A stretch of DNA of 51,290 nucleotides from Clostridia bacterium (GTDB lineage Bacteria; Bacillota; Clostridia; Oscillospirales; CAG-272), in NCBI GenBank assembly GCA_017508665.1, contig JAFVYL010000026.1:1-51290 (forward strand). The letters run 5' to 3'. A program made the translations under genes and the position numbers. Every line of letters begins with the position of its first letter. The first letter of the stretch is position 1. Below are positions 12,404 to 51,290 of the stretch, piece after piece. Under the pieces are notes generated by a model that was not told where the DNA came from, ran no database searches, and saw nothing but the letters and a program-made list of their open reading frames with translations.

Positions 12404-13822
12404 TTATGAAGTTACGGGCAGCTTGGCAGGGTCTTCCTTGTGCTTGCGAAGCTCGATAGCGACAAGAATGAACGCTGTAGCAAACGTAAGTGCCCATGAT
12501 ACGGGATAAGAAATATATATACTCTCAAGAGTAAGGAAGTATTCAAACACCGTGAGAAGCCAAACCACGCGCAATAGACATACGCCGAGCAACGAGATAA
12601 CGGCCGAAGTAATCGACTTGCCAAATCCGCGGAGAATACCGCAAGCTATCTCCATCCAAGCCAATATGAAATACGGCATGGTCTCACACCTCAGTTTGGT
12701 CATAGCGGCATCGTAAGCAATGCCTGCGAGTCCCTCTCCGTCAACTACACCGTAAAGTGCGAGAAGCTGACGGTTGAAGATTAGAATTGCCAAACTGAAT
12801 ATGATAGCGACAAGAGTCGTCAGAGCATAAGAGGCGTACATAATCTTCTTGACTCTGTTGTATTTACCCGCACCGACGTTCTGACTTGAAAATGCAATAG
12901 CTGCCTGACAAACGGAATTCGTAGCGGTGTAAATGAAGCCGTTAAGGTTGGAAACCGCGGCGTTGCCCTCGACGACAGGCTCGTAAACGCTTCCGGGAGA
13001 GAGAATATCATTCACACGGAGCACAGAGGACTGTATCATCATATTTGAGAATGAGAAGAGCGCGCTCTGAAGTCCCGCCGGTAATCCAATGCGTATTATG
13101 TCACGCAGAGCTCTTCTGTCAATGCGAAGCAACTTTGGGGAGAAGCGGCAATCATCATCACTTTTTGAAAGGAAATAGATAAGTGCAAATGCCGACGCGC
13201 CGTTGGAAATAACGGTAGCCCAAGCAACACCGTCAACTGACATGCCAAAGAGAAGAACAAACATGAGATTGAGAAGCACGTTCGCAAATCCCGAGGTCAT
13301 GAGGATGTATAAGGGAGTTTTTGTATCTCCTTTAGCGCGGAATATAGCAATGGAATAGTTGGTCAATGCTAAAAACGGCGCACCGGCAAAATATATACGT
13401 GTGTAAAGAGTTGCGAGCTCCAGCAAGTTGTCCTTTGCTCCCATAAGGCTAAGCACAGGCTTGGATATAGCAAATCCAATAGCACCACCGAAAACACCAA
13501 CCAGTACGGCGAGGATCAGTGAGGTATGAACAACACTCGATACCTGACGCGCATCCTTTGCGCCTATGCGCTGTGCTATAACTACGTTTGCTCCGACTGA
13601 TAATCCGATAAATAAGTTCAGCACCAGGTTAACGAATGCCGCCGTCATTCCTATTGCGCCAACGGAATTTGCCTCGTGAGACATGCTCACGATCATCATA
13701 TCCGCCGCGTTATACGTAACCTGCAACAGATTTGTCGCCAACACCGGCAGAACAAACAAAATAATTTTACCGAGGATCGGCCCCTCGGTCATATCAATAT
13801 TTTTACTTGATACCCTTCTCAT
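12404..13822 (-). CDS. MATE-family multidrug efflux transporter
   Basis: This 472-residue protein has the expected 12 hydrophobic segments in two halves. The N-terminal signature DMTEGPILGKIILFVLPVLATNLLQVTYNAADMMIVS is typical of clostridial NorM/DinF-like MATE pumps, which export cationic drugs or metabolites using Na+ or H+ gradients. A conserved PFLALTNYSIAIFRAKGDTKTPLYI segment lies in the first half and GLPAGLQSALFSFSNMMIQSSV opens the second. Length is normal. No strong AGGAGG precedes the ATG, so initiation may be weak. Upstream are three 120-bp structured repeats separating it from asnS. The substrate is unknown. Confidence 0.93.
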   Translation of the reverse strand: MRRVSSKNIDMTEGPILGKIILFVLPVLATNLLQVTYNAADMMIVSMSHEANSVGAIGMTAAFVNLVLNLFIGLSVGANVVIAQRIGAKDARQVSSVVHTSLILAVLVGVFGGAIGFAISKPVLSLMGAKDNLLELATLYTRIYFAGAPFLALTNYSIAIFRAKGDTKTPLYILMTSGFANVLLNLMFVLLFGMSVDGVAWATVISNGASAFALIYFLSKSDDDCRFSPKLLRIDRRALRDIIRIGLPAGLQSALFSFSNMMIQSSVLRVNDILSPGSVYEPVVEGNAAVSNLNGFIYTATNSVCQAAIAFSSQNVGAGKYNRVKKIMYASYALTTLVAIIFSLAILIFNRQLLALYGVVDGEGLAGIAYDAAMTKLRCETMPYFILAWMEIACGILRGFGKSITSAVISLLGVCLLRVVWLLTVFEYFLTLESIYISYPVSWALTFATAFILVAIELRKHKEDPAKLPVTS

Positions 13823-13920
13823 TTTCTATGCTTTTCACCGAAAAGCCATAAAGTTCTATTTATTGCTTGAGGTAATAAAAATAATACTTACCTGCTTGAT
13901 AATGTGCTAAAAATACGATA

Positions 13921-14280
13921 CATTTGAAGAATGTACCACAAATATGCACAGAGATTATGGGCAGTTTTTGAATCAGATTACGGCTTATTCGTACCGAAGC
14001 AATAGTTGCCTATTGCGAGCTTGTACGAAAAGGCGCGATACGTTTAAAAAATGCAACTCAAATACATGCAGAGATTATGGGCAGTTTTTGAATCAGATTA
14101 CGGCTTATTCGTACCGAAGCAATAGTTGCCTATTGCGAGCTTGTACGAAAAGGCGCGATACATTTAAAAAATGCAATTCAAATACGCACAGAGATTATGG
14201 GCAGTTTTTGAATCAGATTGCGGTTTCTTTGTGCCGAAGCAATAGTTACCTATTGCGAGTTTGCACAAAAAGGCGCGATA
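13921..14280. repeat. Three tandem 120-bp repeats, each with a conserved hairpin
   Basis: The asnS-MATE intergenic region holds three head-to-tail units of exactly 120 bp (13921-14040, 14041-14160, 14161-14280). Units 1 and 2 are identical over their last 90 bp; unit 3 is more diverged. Each has a two-part hairpin (13988-14029, 14108-14149, 14228-14269): an outer 7-bp stem, an internal loop, then GCAATAG/CTATTGC around a 4-nt loop. In unit 3 the outer stem keeps pairing through two compensatory changes (C-G to T-A and A-T to G-C). Traces of further units flank the array: AAAATACGATA before 13921 and an AAAAAATGC start after 14281. No promoter or T-run terminator is evident. The family is not recognised; it could be a REP-like element or a repeated structured RNA. 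Confidence 0.9.
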
Positions 14281-14309
14281 TGATCAAAAAATGCCCATAA
14301 GATCAATGT

Positions 14310-15704
14310 TTAATATTCAGCGTTGCCTACAGTTCTGGGATAAGGAATGACGTCGCGGATGTTGGATACGCCTGTGAGATACATTATGATACGCTCGAAG
14401 CCGAGACCGTAGCCTGCATGCTTAGTACCGCCGTACTTACGGAGATTGAGATACCACCAATAGTCCTCCTCAGAGAGCTGAAGCTCTGCCATACGGCTCT
14501 TCAGCACATCTATTCTCTCCTCACGCTGAGAACCGCCGATGATCTCACCGACACCGGGAACGAGGAGGTCCATAGCAGCAACTGTCTTACCGTCATCGTT
14601 GAGTCGCATATAGAACGCCTTGATATCCTTGGGGTAATCTACAAGGAAGATAGGCTTCTTGTATACCTGCTCTGTGAGGTATCTCTCGTGCTCGGTCTGA
14701 AGGTCAACACCCCAGTATACAGGATACTTGAACTCAGCACCGGACTTAAGAAGAACGTCAATAGCCTCGGTGTAGGTCACCTTTGCGTAATCAGCGTTGC
14801 GAAGTGCGGTGAGTCTCTCGAGGAGACCCTTGTCCACAAAGCTGTTGAAGAAGCTAAGCTCAGCCTGGCAGTTATCCATTACGTGGTTGATGATATACTT
14901 TATCATATCCCACGCGAGCTGCATATTGTCGTTGAGATCAGCAAACGCGATCTCAGGCTCTATCATCCAGAACTCTGCCGCATGACGCGCAGTGTTGGAG
15001 TTCTCGGCTCTGAATGTAGGACCGAAGGTATAGATGTTACCGAATGCCATAGCGTAGGTCTCGCCCTCGAGCTGACCGGAAACCGTAAGGTTTGTGCTCT
15101 TGCCGAAGAAGTCCTGAGAGAAGTCTACCTTACCGTCCTCGCCCTTGGGAAGATTATCAAGATCAAGGGTGGTAACACGGAACATCTCACCTGCGCCCTC
15201 TGCATCGGATCCGGTGATGATGGGAGTATGAACGTATACGAAGCCACGGCTGTGGAAGAACGAATGGATAGCATATGCTACCTCAGAACGAACTCTGTAT
15301 ACCGCGGAGAAGAGGTTGGTTCTCGGGCGGAGATAAGCCTGCTCACGAAGATACTCAACAGTATGACGCTTAGGCTGGATGGGATAGTCGGGAGTGGAAG
15401 TGCCTTCAACCTCTACCTTCTCAGCCTTGAGCTCCATAGGCTGCTTTGCGCCGGGAGTGAGAACAATAGTACCGGTAACTACAAGTGCCGCGCCAACATT
15501 CTGTGCCGCTATCTCATCATAGTTGTCTATCTTATCTCTCTCGAAAACGACCTGAATGCCCTTGAAGTGAGAGCCATCGTTAAGATCAATAAATCCGAAC
15601 GCCTTGGAATCTCTGAGGTTTCTCACCCAACCGCCGACGGTTACAGTCTTGCCACCGTAGGATTCCATATCGGCATATATGCTTCTAAGTAAATCTCTTT
15701 TCAT
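14310..15704 (-). CDS. asnS: Asparagine-tRNA ligase
   Basis: This 464-residue class IIb aminoacyl-tRNA synthetase attaches asparagine to tRNA-Asn. The N-terminal OB-fold anticodon-binding domain (about 15-110) reads [33 protein letters not shown]. The catalytic domain has motif 2, [27 protein letters not shown], and motif 3, [26 protein letters not shown]. The ending is ...[13 protein letters not shown], typical of AsnS rather than AspS. The ATG at 15702-15704 was chosen because GGAGG lies 5 bases upstream. The leader is only about 30 nt, so no T-box is present. No terminator follows before the repeat array. Confidence 0.97.
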
Positions 15705-33622: not shown

Positions 33623-35467
33623 TTATGAAAGTCCGCCATCTCTTACATATTCCGCAAACAAGTCTCTTGCGTAAAGGCCGCTGATTCTGGCAACCTCGGT
33701 GAGATTGTTGTACGTATAAGAGGAAGTGTATGTATCTACTACTATATAGTAGGTTTTACCGGAGCTTATACTGTTCTTCAAGGTGTTTATATCGACTCCC
33801 GCCGCTACGTAATAATCGGAATTCGTCGTATTGATAAACTTACTCAGAAGATCAGCACCTGATATTGAACAAAGCACGAGATCGTTGTCAAACGGAAGAA
33901 GTGAATATACGTCAGAATAGAGAACTGTGCCTGCCTTAAGGTTATAAGGATTTCTCGTACGGATAAATCCGCCGCCGAGAGTGATATCATATTTATCACC
34001 CCAAGCCTCAACTCCTGCCTGATAATAGAGATTCGCGACTATCTGCTCAACCTCGGAGTCGTCAAGGTACTTGCTGTTAGTACCGAGCACCTCGTCCGCC
34101 GCGGATATCTGTTCATCGTACTTAAGCAAAAGCTCTGCGACAATAGGATCGTCAGCAAGAGAGCTCCATGCCGAGGAATTGACTATCTCTACCGTGTTCA
34201 CACCGGTATTGCCGTTTGCCGAGTTGATGCTGATCTCTGCGTGAGAGATGCCCTTGTTCTCTCCACCGCCCTGTAAGTGATACACGCCATAGCCGTCAAG
34301 AAGAATATACGACTGATGGGTATGTGCCTCGAATACCATATCTACGTAGCCGTTTGAAAGAGCTACATCATAATAGGAGGATATGGCGGAGTTGCTCACG
34401 GACTTAATACCGGATGAGCTCGAGCCGTAACCGTCGTGTATAGAATAGATTATGAAGTCAACGCCCTGCGCTCGCAGTCTATTGGACTCAGCCTTGACAA
34501 GAGCGGTAAGCGCACTGCCTACCTTGAATGTGAAATCACCGGATACGTCACCCGAGATCGAGGAATAGCAGTCGCCGATAGCACCGATAATGCCTATTTC
34601 TACACCTCCGCGTTCAATGACTACAGAGGGGGTAGCATATTCTGCTCTCTCGCCTGTAGATTTGTTATAAATATTGATACCGAGGAGTGGGAAATCCGCA
34701 AGAGCGGCGTTTGATGAAATATAGATCTCGCTCCAATCATACTCATGATTGCCAAGAGTCATGGAAACGAAGTTAAGCTCATTCATCCATTCTGTGATAA
34801 ATGCGCCGTACGTAAGATTGGACTCAGCACTTCCCTGCCACATATCACCCGACGAGAGAAAAATGGTGTTGGCATCAGACTCTCTCTTGAGATAAGTTGT
34901 AAGTCCGCCGATACCGGGCTGAGAGGTGGTCGCGGATATCTTTCCGTGGAGGTCGTTGAGAGCAAAAATATCAATTACAACAACAACAGAAACCGAGCAA
35001 TAATCGCACACGCCATCGTTGTTAACGTCAGTATGACCGTCATCGCAGTCTTCACCTGTGCCGGTGTTGTCACCCGTGCCGGTGTTATCGCCCGTGCCGG
35101 TGTTATCGCCCGTGCCGGTATTATCGCCTGTACCGGTGTTGTCACCTGTACCGGTGTTGTCGCCTGTGCCGGTGTTGTCACCTGTGCCGGTGTTGTCGCC
35201 CGTGCCGGTATTGTCACCTGTGCCGGTATTGTCACCTGCGCCGGTGTTGTCACCTGTGCCGGTATTGTCACCTGTGCCGGTGTTGTTGTTTGAATGATCA
35301 TCATCGGTGGGTTGTCTGTCTCCGGAAATTCCGTCACCTACAAGGTCCTCGGGAGTAGGAAACAGCGAAATCTGGTGTTCAACGGTTTCTCCCGGCACTC
35401 CAACAAAGAGTGAACAGCTACTGAGACAAAGAGTCATTATAACAAATAATGCGATTAACTTTTTCAT
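33623..35467 (-). CDS. 5'-nucleotidase family lipoprotein with hexapeptide-repeat linker
   Basis: This 614-residue protein has a lipoprotein signal (LSSC, Cys18), then a linker of 13 TGTGDN-type repeats. Next is a Cys/acidic motif CDDGHTDVNNDGVCDYC, a metallophosphatase domain, and a 5'-nucleotidase C-terminal domain (GGGFIRTRNPYN, YSLLPFDNDLVLCSISGADLL). Metal and catalytic motifs are present: NDLHGK, SSGDMWQG, TLGNHEYDW, IYSIHDGY and EAHTHQSY. Such enzymes hydrolyse nucleotides or UDP-sugars outside the membrane to salvage nucleosides and phosphate. The ATG at 35465-35467 was chosen for its AGGAAA site; 22 upstream codons are open but lack one. It is a close paralogue of the next gene, which lacks the repeat linker. 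Confidence 0.92.
   Translation of the reverse strand: MKKLIALFVIMTLCLSSCSLFVGVPGETVEHQISLFPTPEDLVGDGISGDRQPTDDDHSNNNTGTGDNTGTGDNTGAGDNTGTGDNTGTGDNTGTGDNTGTGDNTGTGDNTGTGDNTGTGDNTGTGDNTGTGDNTGTGEDCDDGHTDVNNDGVCDYCSVSVVVVIDIFALNDLHGKISATTSQPGIGGLTTYLKRESDANTIFLSSGDMWQGSAESNLTYGAFITEWMNELNFVSMTLGNHEYDWSEIYISSNAALADFPLLGINIYNKSTGERAEYATPSVVIERGGVEIGIIGAIGDCYSSISGDVSGDFTFKVGSALTALVKAESNRLRAQGVDFIIYSIHDGYGSSSSGIKSVSNSAISSYYDVALSNGYVDMVFEAHTHQSYILLDGYGVYHLQGGGENKGISHAEISINSANGNTGVNTVEIVNSSAWSSLADDPIVAELLLKYDEQISAADEVLGTNSKYLDDSEVEQIVANLYYQAGVEAWGDKYDITLGGGFIRTRNPYNLKAGTVLYSDVYSLLPFDNDLVLCSISGADLLSKFINTTNSDYYVAAGVDINTLKNSISSGKTYYIVVDTYTSSYTYNNLTEVARISGLYARDLFAEYVRDGGLS
35048..35281 (-). repeat. 13-copy 18-bp coding repeat (TGTGDN linker)
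   Basis: Thirteen 18-bp units encode TG(T/A)GDN, with the last one TGTGED. Units differ at silent third positions, and one has Ala for Thr. The linker is rich in Gly, Thr and Asp, so it is likely a flexible spacer lifting the enzyme from the membrane. Slipped-strand length change would stay in frame. Confidence 0.95.
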
Positions 35468-35534
35468 GTAATTTTTCCTTTTGTAACATTGAAAATACGC
35501 CCGATGTGCAGGCGGCGTAAATTTATACACCACT

Positions 35535-51149: not shown

Positions 51150-51170
51150 CTTGAACAAAGGATGTTCAAG
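51150..51170 (-). other. Hairpin at the 23S rRNA 3' end
   Basis: CTTGAACA/TGTTCAAG (51150-51157 with 51163-51170) forms a perfect 8-bp stem around AAGGA at the predicted mature 3' end. It would compete with the usual pairing of 23S 5' and 3' ends, and may mark a processing site. Confidence 0.5.
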
Positions 51171-51290
51171 CCCTCGGTCTATTAGTATCAGTCAACTGAA
51201 CACATTACTGTGCTTACATCTCTGACCTATCAAACTCGTAGTCTACAAGTGACCTTACTCATTTAAAATGATGGGATATCTCATCTTGAG
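51165..51290 (-). rRNA. rrl: 23S ribosomal RNA, 3' end only
   Basis: Read on minus, the sequence runs CTCAAGATGAGATATCCC, then TAAGGTCACTTGTAGACTAC, GTTTGATAGGTCAGAGATGT, AAGCACAGTAATGTGTTCAG and TGACTGATACTAATAGACCG before AGGGCTTG, the conserved 3' end of bacterial 23S rRNA. The gene continues beyond the window. The mature 3' end, set at about 51165, is uncertain by a few bases. No 5S gene or tRNA lies between it and the terminator at 51038. Confidence 0.93.

Follow-up and report, generated by a model that had tools for sequence, protein, structure and literature searches.

Dispersed palindromes are best known from enterobacteria and Pseudomonas. The attC site is an imperfect palindrome that lies directly after a stop codon, folds better from its bottom strand and carries boxes with the consensus RYYYAAC ... 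GTTRRRY. Ribosomes are reported to stall at REPs lying no more than 15 nt from a stop codon (PMC12306157, partial text), and REPINs are tied to RAYT transposases (PMC3116915, partial text). ERIC forms a single long stem-loop according to a study in which two Clostridium species are among the clustered genomes (PMC2267715, partial text); furthermore, palindromic candidate RNAs have been described in human gut bacteria (PMC8040213, partial text). Here, we describe a large clostridial family that reaches dozens of copies in some genomes and has a strict address at gene ends. Its core is shared between families, and covariation extends over the entire rod. No description of this rod element was found in the open-access literature among the matches listed, as judged from titles and abstract openings.

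The family resembles REP/PU-BIME elements and REPINs of enterobacteria and Pseudomonas in consisting of dispersed, multi-copy extragenic palindromes, which are often clustered and a subset of which lies near stop codons. It differs from REP in being about three times longer (REP length is 30-40 in the accessible part of PMC2267715), and from both REP and REPINs in its direct tandem arrangement, its single orientation and the lack of a consistent Y1 gene. REP and REPIN units are short (about 20-40 nt) and mainly arranged as inverted pairs, whereas among the loci of the 92 arrays formed by 123 covariance-model matches in five genomes (the context set), only L212 has close opposite copies. The similar length and the single long stem-loop are reminiscent of ERIC/IRU (127 bp; fold from PMC2267715, partial text), but host group, tandem arrays, locus-specific arms and a near-strict sense orientation set the two apart, by description rather than by sequence. 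Like attC, the element is an imperfect palindrome right after a stop codon with a better-folding bottom strand. However, it follows household genes and not cassettes, and an attC identity was rejected because R boxes were found in 0 of the 123 copies (shuffled mean 0.59).

In the window, i.e., the whole analysed stretch of 51,290 nucleotides, a 120-bp tandem array of 3.2 copies (13916-14294, TRF) confirms the repeat period given by an earlier sequence-only reading. The upstream gene is asnS, encoding asparagine--tRNA ligase (14310-15704, minus strand; the ORF as listed runs to 15734), whose stop codon is 16 nt ahead of the first covariance-model match. The downstream gene on the same strand (12404-13822, minus strand; an ORF not profile-scanned) encodes a membrane protein that is MATE-like by our reading. 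In the order of asnS transcription, the first unit is a complete rod hairpin at 14195-14300 on the minus strand (DNA fold; model match 14203-14293, 82.2 bits), with outer arms at 14292-14300 and 14195-14203 and the core AACTCG-CAATAG-GTAA-CTATTG-CTTCGG at 14234-14261. The second and third copies, also on the minus strand, are matched at 14083-14173 (79.2 bits, core 14114-14141) and 13963-14053 (78.4 bits, core 13994-14021). The same reading had noted a 9-base segment after unit 3 (numbered along the plus strand) that can pair with each unit, and this is indeed the case: TTATGGGCA occurs at 13955-13963, 14075-14083 and 14195-14203, and 14292-14300 reads TGCCCATAA, its complement. Between units 1 and 3, counted along the plus strand, there are eight differences in the last 60 bases, four of which pair up as claimed, C13990-G14027 becoming T14230-A14267 and A13993-T14024 becoming G14233-C14264; the inner stem GCAATAG/CTATTGC is constant, and the plus-strand loop is TTGC or TTAC. 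When folded as DNA, the complete rod (14193-14303) has z-scores of -10.1 on the plus strand and -7.2 on the minus strand. Given these values and the covariation of the same structure across the family, the structure of the array is more than chance.

The array units are copies of one dispersed rod-hairpin family. A BLAST search of the array against its own genome found ten places, the array included, and those inspected have in common, some with changes, a core on the asnS strand, ARCTCG-N16-CTTCGG. A covariance model (R1; 73 copies, 13 pairs) was searched across clostridial genomes. In the source genome, which is 64% complete, it found 32 copies at E<=0.01, and 31 at E<=0.001 in another search; it matched 50 of the 60 sampled genomes of the genus (E<=0.01), with 0 to 44 copies per genome in this sample, and six of the 197 sampled genomes of the order (E<=0.001), the source genome included. 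Consistent with the sequence-only reading, which had recognized no known element family, Rfam 15 has no family at the array, and a permissive search gave three weak matches far below gathering.

In genome contigs, the specific core pattern was found in 44 stretches from MAGs all titled Clostridia, Oscillospiraceae or Clostridiales, most of them with ruminant gut in the title; one of these copies (L132) lies within coding sequence, and another (L106) seems to be without the rod. Of 394 genomes of the order, 40 contain a looser core, CTCGNNGTAN6TACNNCTTCG, and none contains the reversed control pattern; the matches to the looser core fall in families f1, f3, f10, f11, f13, f14, f17, f19, f20 and f23. 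Single matches of this looser pattern may be due to chance, and those in f13 (L267) and f20 (L281) are inside called genes. Family f3 has at most 34 core matches per genome, many of them at contig ends, as expected of assembly-breaking repeats. In two f3 genomes (G139 and G152), core copies lie 10-125 bases from the starts of many contigs; near-identical young copies are suggested for this lineage. Four matches in viral contigs were set aside as they looked like chance, the three inspected by eye (all but L148) being without the rod. At about 2960-3160 of L101, a second copy of the element is apparently split, as judged by eye, by about 150-170 unrelated bases directly after the apical hairpin.

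Each copy is a rod hairpin of about 100 nt, in which the core (CTCG-hairpin-CTTCGG) hardly varies and the outer arms differ from locus to locus. The family thus comprises imperfect palindromes of about 91-120 bp, single or in direct tandem, whose core is invariant and whose locus-specific arms covary. Direct unit spacings (n = 31) range from 91 to 214 nt, the model length being 91 nt. Copies for alignment were selected from 140 places matching a loose pattern, 105 of which fit a stricter core and 91 of which were retained. The omitted ones were L106, L132, L144 and three L111 copies (rod absent or coding, by eye), L094 (short flank) and seven removed by an 85% identity filter. Alignment A1 contains 84 of the 91 copies, and A2 and A4 contain 73 of the 90 left after another L111 copy was dropped, all hand-chosen to thin arrays. 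CTCG and CTTCG are constant in 73 of 73 alignment rows. The outer arms are specific to the locus yet complementary, as seen by eye; with regard to MITE features, they vary by locus.

In the 84-copy alignment, 40 of the 45 strongest APC-corrected scores fall on one antidiagonal (index sums 121-125, including neighbours of true pairs), therefore the copies share one rod of about 100 nt. With ribosum scoring, RNAalifold gave a sense structure of 30 pairs, in which 86.2% of the cells pair, compared with 68.1% in shuffles and 38-50% when the structure was slid along the alignment. Both sides have changed in 374 of its cells (141 in shuffles), and double changes occur in 23 of the 30 pairs. In the antisense structure (32 pairs), 89.5% of the cells are paired, both sides have changed in 421 cells (142 in shuffles), and 27 pairs have double changes. 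The default consensus is much smaller: it has 13 pairs, and double changes occur in 10. The nulls, shuffles and slid structures, keep the phylogeny partly or not at all, and the covariation counts are strong but not formal evidence, because phylogeny lies outside them.

The sequence-only reading had argued for selection on folded RNA or single-stranded DNA rather than on protein, a proposal strengthened by the many further compensations in homologues and by the absence of a common reading frame. The best frame is open in only 63 of 123 copies, and only 10 of the 31 spacings are multiples of three. A 118-aa plus-strand frame does cross the array, which follows from 120 being a multiple of three, and gene callers may report false small proteins over such arrays. 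The same reading had stated that asnS has no other terminator. This held, as a consensus scan of 13700-14400 found one terminator-like site (0.6 expected), which is within the next gene, and none between asnS and that gene; the suggestion that the array itself terminates asnS finds no support in its build, which is unlike that of a terminator. Among the 123 copies, a GC hairpin followed by a T run occurs in two, and a terminator follows 32 of the 92 arrays, about as commonly as it follows control genes (37 of 122). A repeated protein or an intrinsic terminator is thus a most improbable account of the family.

Genes around the 92 arrays were called with an in-house codon score in place of a published gene finder. 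Relative to the core strand, the upstream gene is on the same strand at 85 arrays, on the opposite strand at 5 and not called at 2, and 57 of the 85 same-strand arrays start -4 to +17 nt from the upstream stop codon, a position shared with the subset of REPs at most about 15 nt from a stop. Another 17 of the 85 start 108-177 nt from the stop, about one unit further, and we infer a decayed first unit in between. Downstream genes are on the same strand at 53 arrays, on the opposite strand at 35 and not called at 4. A cruder ORF caller, since replaced by the codon-scored one, had placed the upstream gene on the same strand in 51 of 60 cases, and so it is in 31 of 38 copies fetched by the core pattern, mostly from outside the genus. 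At the 57 arrays, the stop codon is TAA in 39, TGA in 16 and TAG in 2 (269, 88 and 20, respectively, among all called genes). No common function was found in the 40 of 84 distinct upstream genes that were profile-scanned, all from genomes other than G005. Among these genes are GroEL, IF-2, RNase Y, PFOR, a phosphoglycerate kinase-like protein, an S1-domain protein (Tex-like by our reading), asnS, frr, purL-type and nrdD-type genes and IMP dehydrogenase, with several of them turning up again as orthologues. The fixed place after stop codons goes beyond what the sequence-only reading had claimed, as do the family's spread and its folding strand.

PFOR was found in 51 of the 60 genus genomes, and 30 loci were inspected. 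A sense copy lies near the PFOR stop in 9 of 30 species (L283, L285, L286, L294, L295, L298, L303, L304 and L309), although that of L286 is about 100 nt from the stop and that of L285 is weak (28 bits). On inspection by eye, 7 of these 9 arrays are followed by a terminator, so the element is within the transcript, ahead of the terminator; at most of the other 21 loci the terminator comes closely after the stop codon. The element at PFOR has been gained or lost between species. Such positions are what would be expected of a sense-strand RNA of the 3' UTR like the E. coli REP, in which the hairpin would protect the mRNA 3' end or slow the terminating ribosome, as reported for stop-proximal REPs, and the core would bind a protein. 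The sense orientation to the upstream gene (85 of 90 arrays), the stop-codon address, the terminators after the PFOR arrays and the diversity of the household genes all speak for it. The apical loops do so as well: 28 of 68 copies have a GNRA loop on the sense strand and 1 of 68 on the opposite one, a difference in favour of the mRNA strand. The patchy presence at a given gene is a point against it, as is the folding behavior described below. Overall, we consider this RNA a serious possibility that falls short of even chances, almost as likely as a palindrome dispersing as a folded single strand.

The sense strand folds less well than its complement. Among 123 copies, the mean fold energy is -40.2 kcal/mol for antisense and -33.5 kcal/mol for sense, with sense more stable in 13 copies; against dinucleotide shuffles the mean z-scores are -4.5 and -3.3, respectively, with sense lower in 28. 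When the arms are aligned so that both kinds of mismatch are treated alike, A.C mismatches on the sense strand (502) outnumber G.T (359); A.C is in excess in 75 copies and G.T in 30, whereas the two are about equal (153 and 158) 41-59 positions away from the loop, a range that falls mostly outside the rod. Relative to column make-up, 117 A.C were observed with 171 expected, and 50 G.U with 111 expected (excluding two constant-G.T columns). These two columns (10/86 and 25/70) retain G.T on the sense strand. Of four RNAalifold comparisons, three favoured antisense and one, the A1 default score (-16.1 vs -10.3), favoured sense. For the core-pattern set, two of 44 copies (L267 and L281) were dropped for being inside called genes; of the remaining 42 fetched copies, 39 from other genera or families, antisense is more stable in 40. 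A.C exceeds G.T in 15 of 21 f19/f17 copies, and the reverse is seen in 4; the N1 tally is 14 A.C and 1 G.T. The better tolerance of A.C than of G.U argues against a functional mRNA hairpin, and this fold of the wrong strand is a testable puzzle that separates a function in mRNA from one in folded single-stranded DNA or antisense RNA.

At somewhat less than even odds, we tentatively favour a palindrome whose dispersing form is a folded single strand and which is retained after the stop codon in one orientation. A miniature palindromic repeat would spread within the genome as a folded strand opposite to the gene that it follows, recognized by a putative protein through the invariant internal loop (CGAA/GAG-YTT on the antisense strand). 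It would then be retained in the 3' UTR, in which a single orientation may be tolerated or useful, and copies within an array would multiply by tandem duplication. Mobility is supported by the range of copy number among genomes, the patchy presence at PFOR and the f3 copies at contig ends, which resemble young repeats. Furthermore, loci of one genome are more alike, with a mean identity of 0.61, than those of different genomes (0.55). Some copies have their nearest relatives in their own genome, a further point for mobility, but others (PFOR, Tex-like) most resemble the orthologous copy in a different species, indicating vertical descent; both spread and vertical descent thus occur. The greater stability of the antisense strand, the larger share of paired cells in its structure and the better tolerance of A.C on the sense strand support folding of the former. 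On the other hand, the orientation and the stop proximity are stricter than a plain mobile element needs, some copies descend vertically, and known mobilisers of single-stranded DNA do not fit; the GNRA sense loops, the two G.T columns and the A1 default score speak against the antisense fold.

Among candidate mobilisers, a REP mobilised by Y1 fits poorly, as 17 of 26 genomes with at least 10 copies have no Y1_Tnp over the cut-off and a consistent Y1 (RAYT) link is therefore absent. The 9 of 26 such genomes that do have it, compared with 6 of 34 with fewer copies, represent a weak tilt (Fisher P = 0.15). Copying through cDNA was considered because the antisense strand folds better, and lost support as reverse transcriptases were found in only 9 of the 60 genus genomes, G005 with its 37 copies not being among them. 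These absences are soft because many genomes are incomplete.

Pairing might also be maintained by mutation rather than selection, through template-switch correction of quasi-palindromes. The likeness of copies within one array (mean identity 0.74) fits this, and at PFOR (L283, L303, L304 and L309) the 3' flank, an outer arm, pairs by eye with the gene's own last codons. However, the core does not vary in the genus alignments and is found again in other families, and the orientation is almost always the same, making this explanation improbable. A broader proposal, which we hold to be doubtful, is that a strand-specific folded element of a new class marks gene 3' ends in this clostridial order, between stop and terminator; it would act via the folded template strand, as single-stranded DNA or antisense RNA, its invariant G.A-rich internal loop would be bound by a putative protein, and its outer arms would adapt to the last codons of each gene.

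The antisense fold and the single orientation at the 3' border of the gene would also suit a barrier to antisense transcripts, in which the hairpin stops or cleaves RNA entering the gene from downstream, replacing Rho. This idea is kept alive by Rho itself, for which 0 of 40 genus genomes are over the TIGR00767 cut-off, compared with 8 of 14 control genomes. In the window, a promoter-like site (13896-13924, 9 of 12 matches) aims into the array on the plus strand, but it is one of four such sites in the consensus scan of 13700-14400, where 2.3 are expected, and the 92 arrays taken together show no promoter signal directed at them (mean z -0.07). Convergent neighbours are not in excess (35 of 88 vs 45 of 122 controls), and a terminator already lies behind about a third of the arrays (the 32 counted above), so that we regard such a barrier as unlikely to be the function of the element. 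Rho appears to be absent from this genus sample, 28 of the 40 genomes having weak matches only, probably to other ATPases.

Two other features of the window were observed. Its terminus (51162-51290), which is that of the contig, is the 3' end of a 23S rRNA gene. At 35052-35286, an 18-bp tandem repeat of 13 copies lies in a minus-strand ORF (33623-35533), where it encodes a GDNTGT linker that connects a lipoprotein-like start to a 5'-nucleotidase-like body (names by eye).
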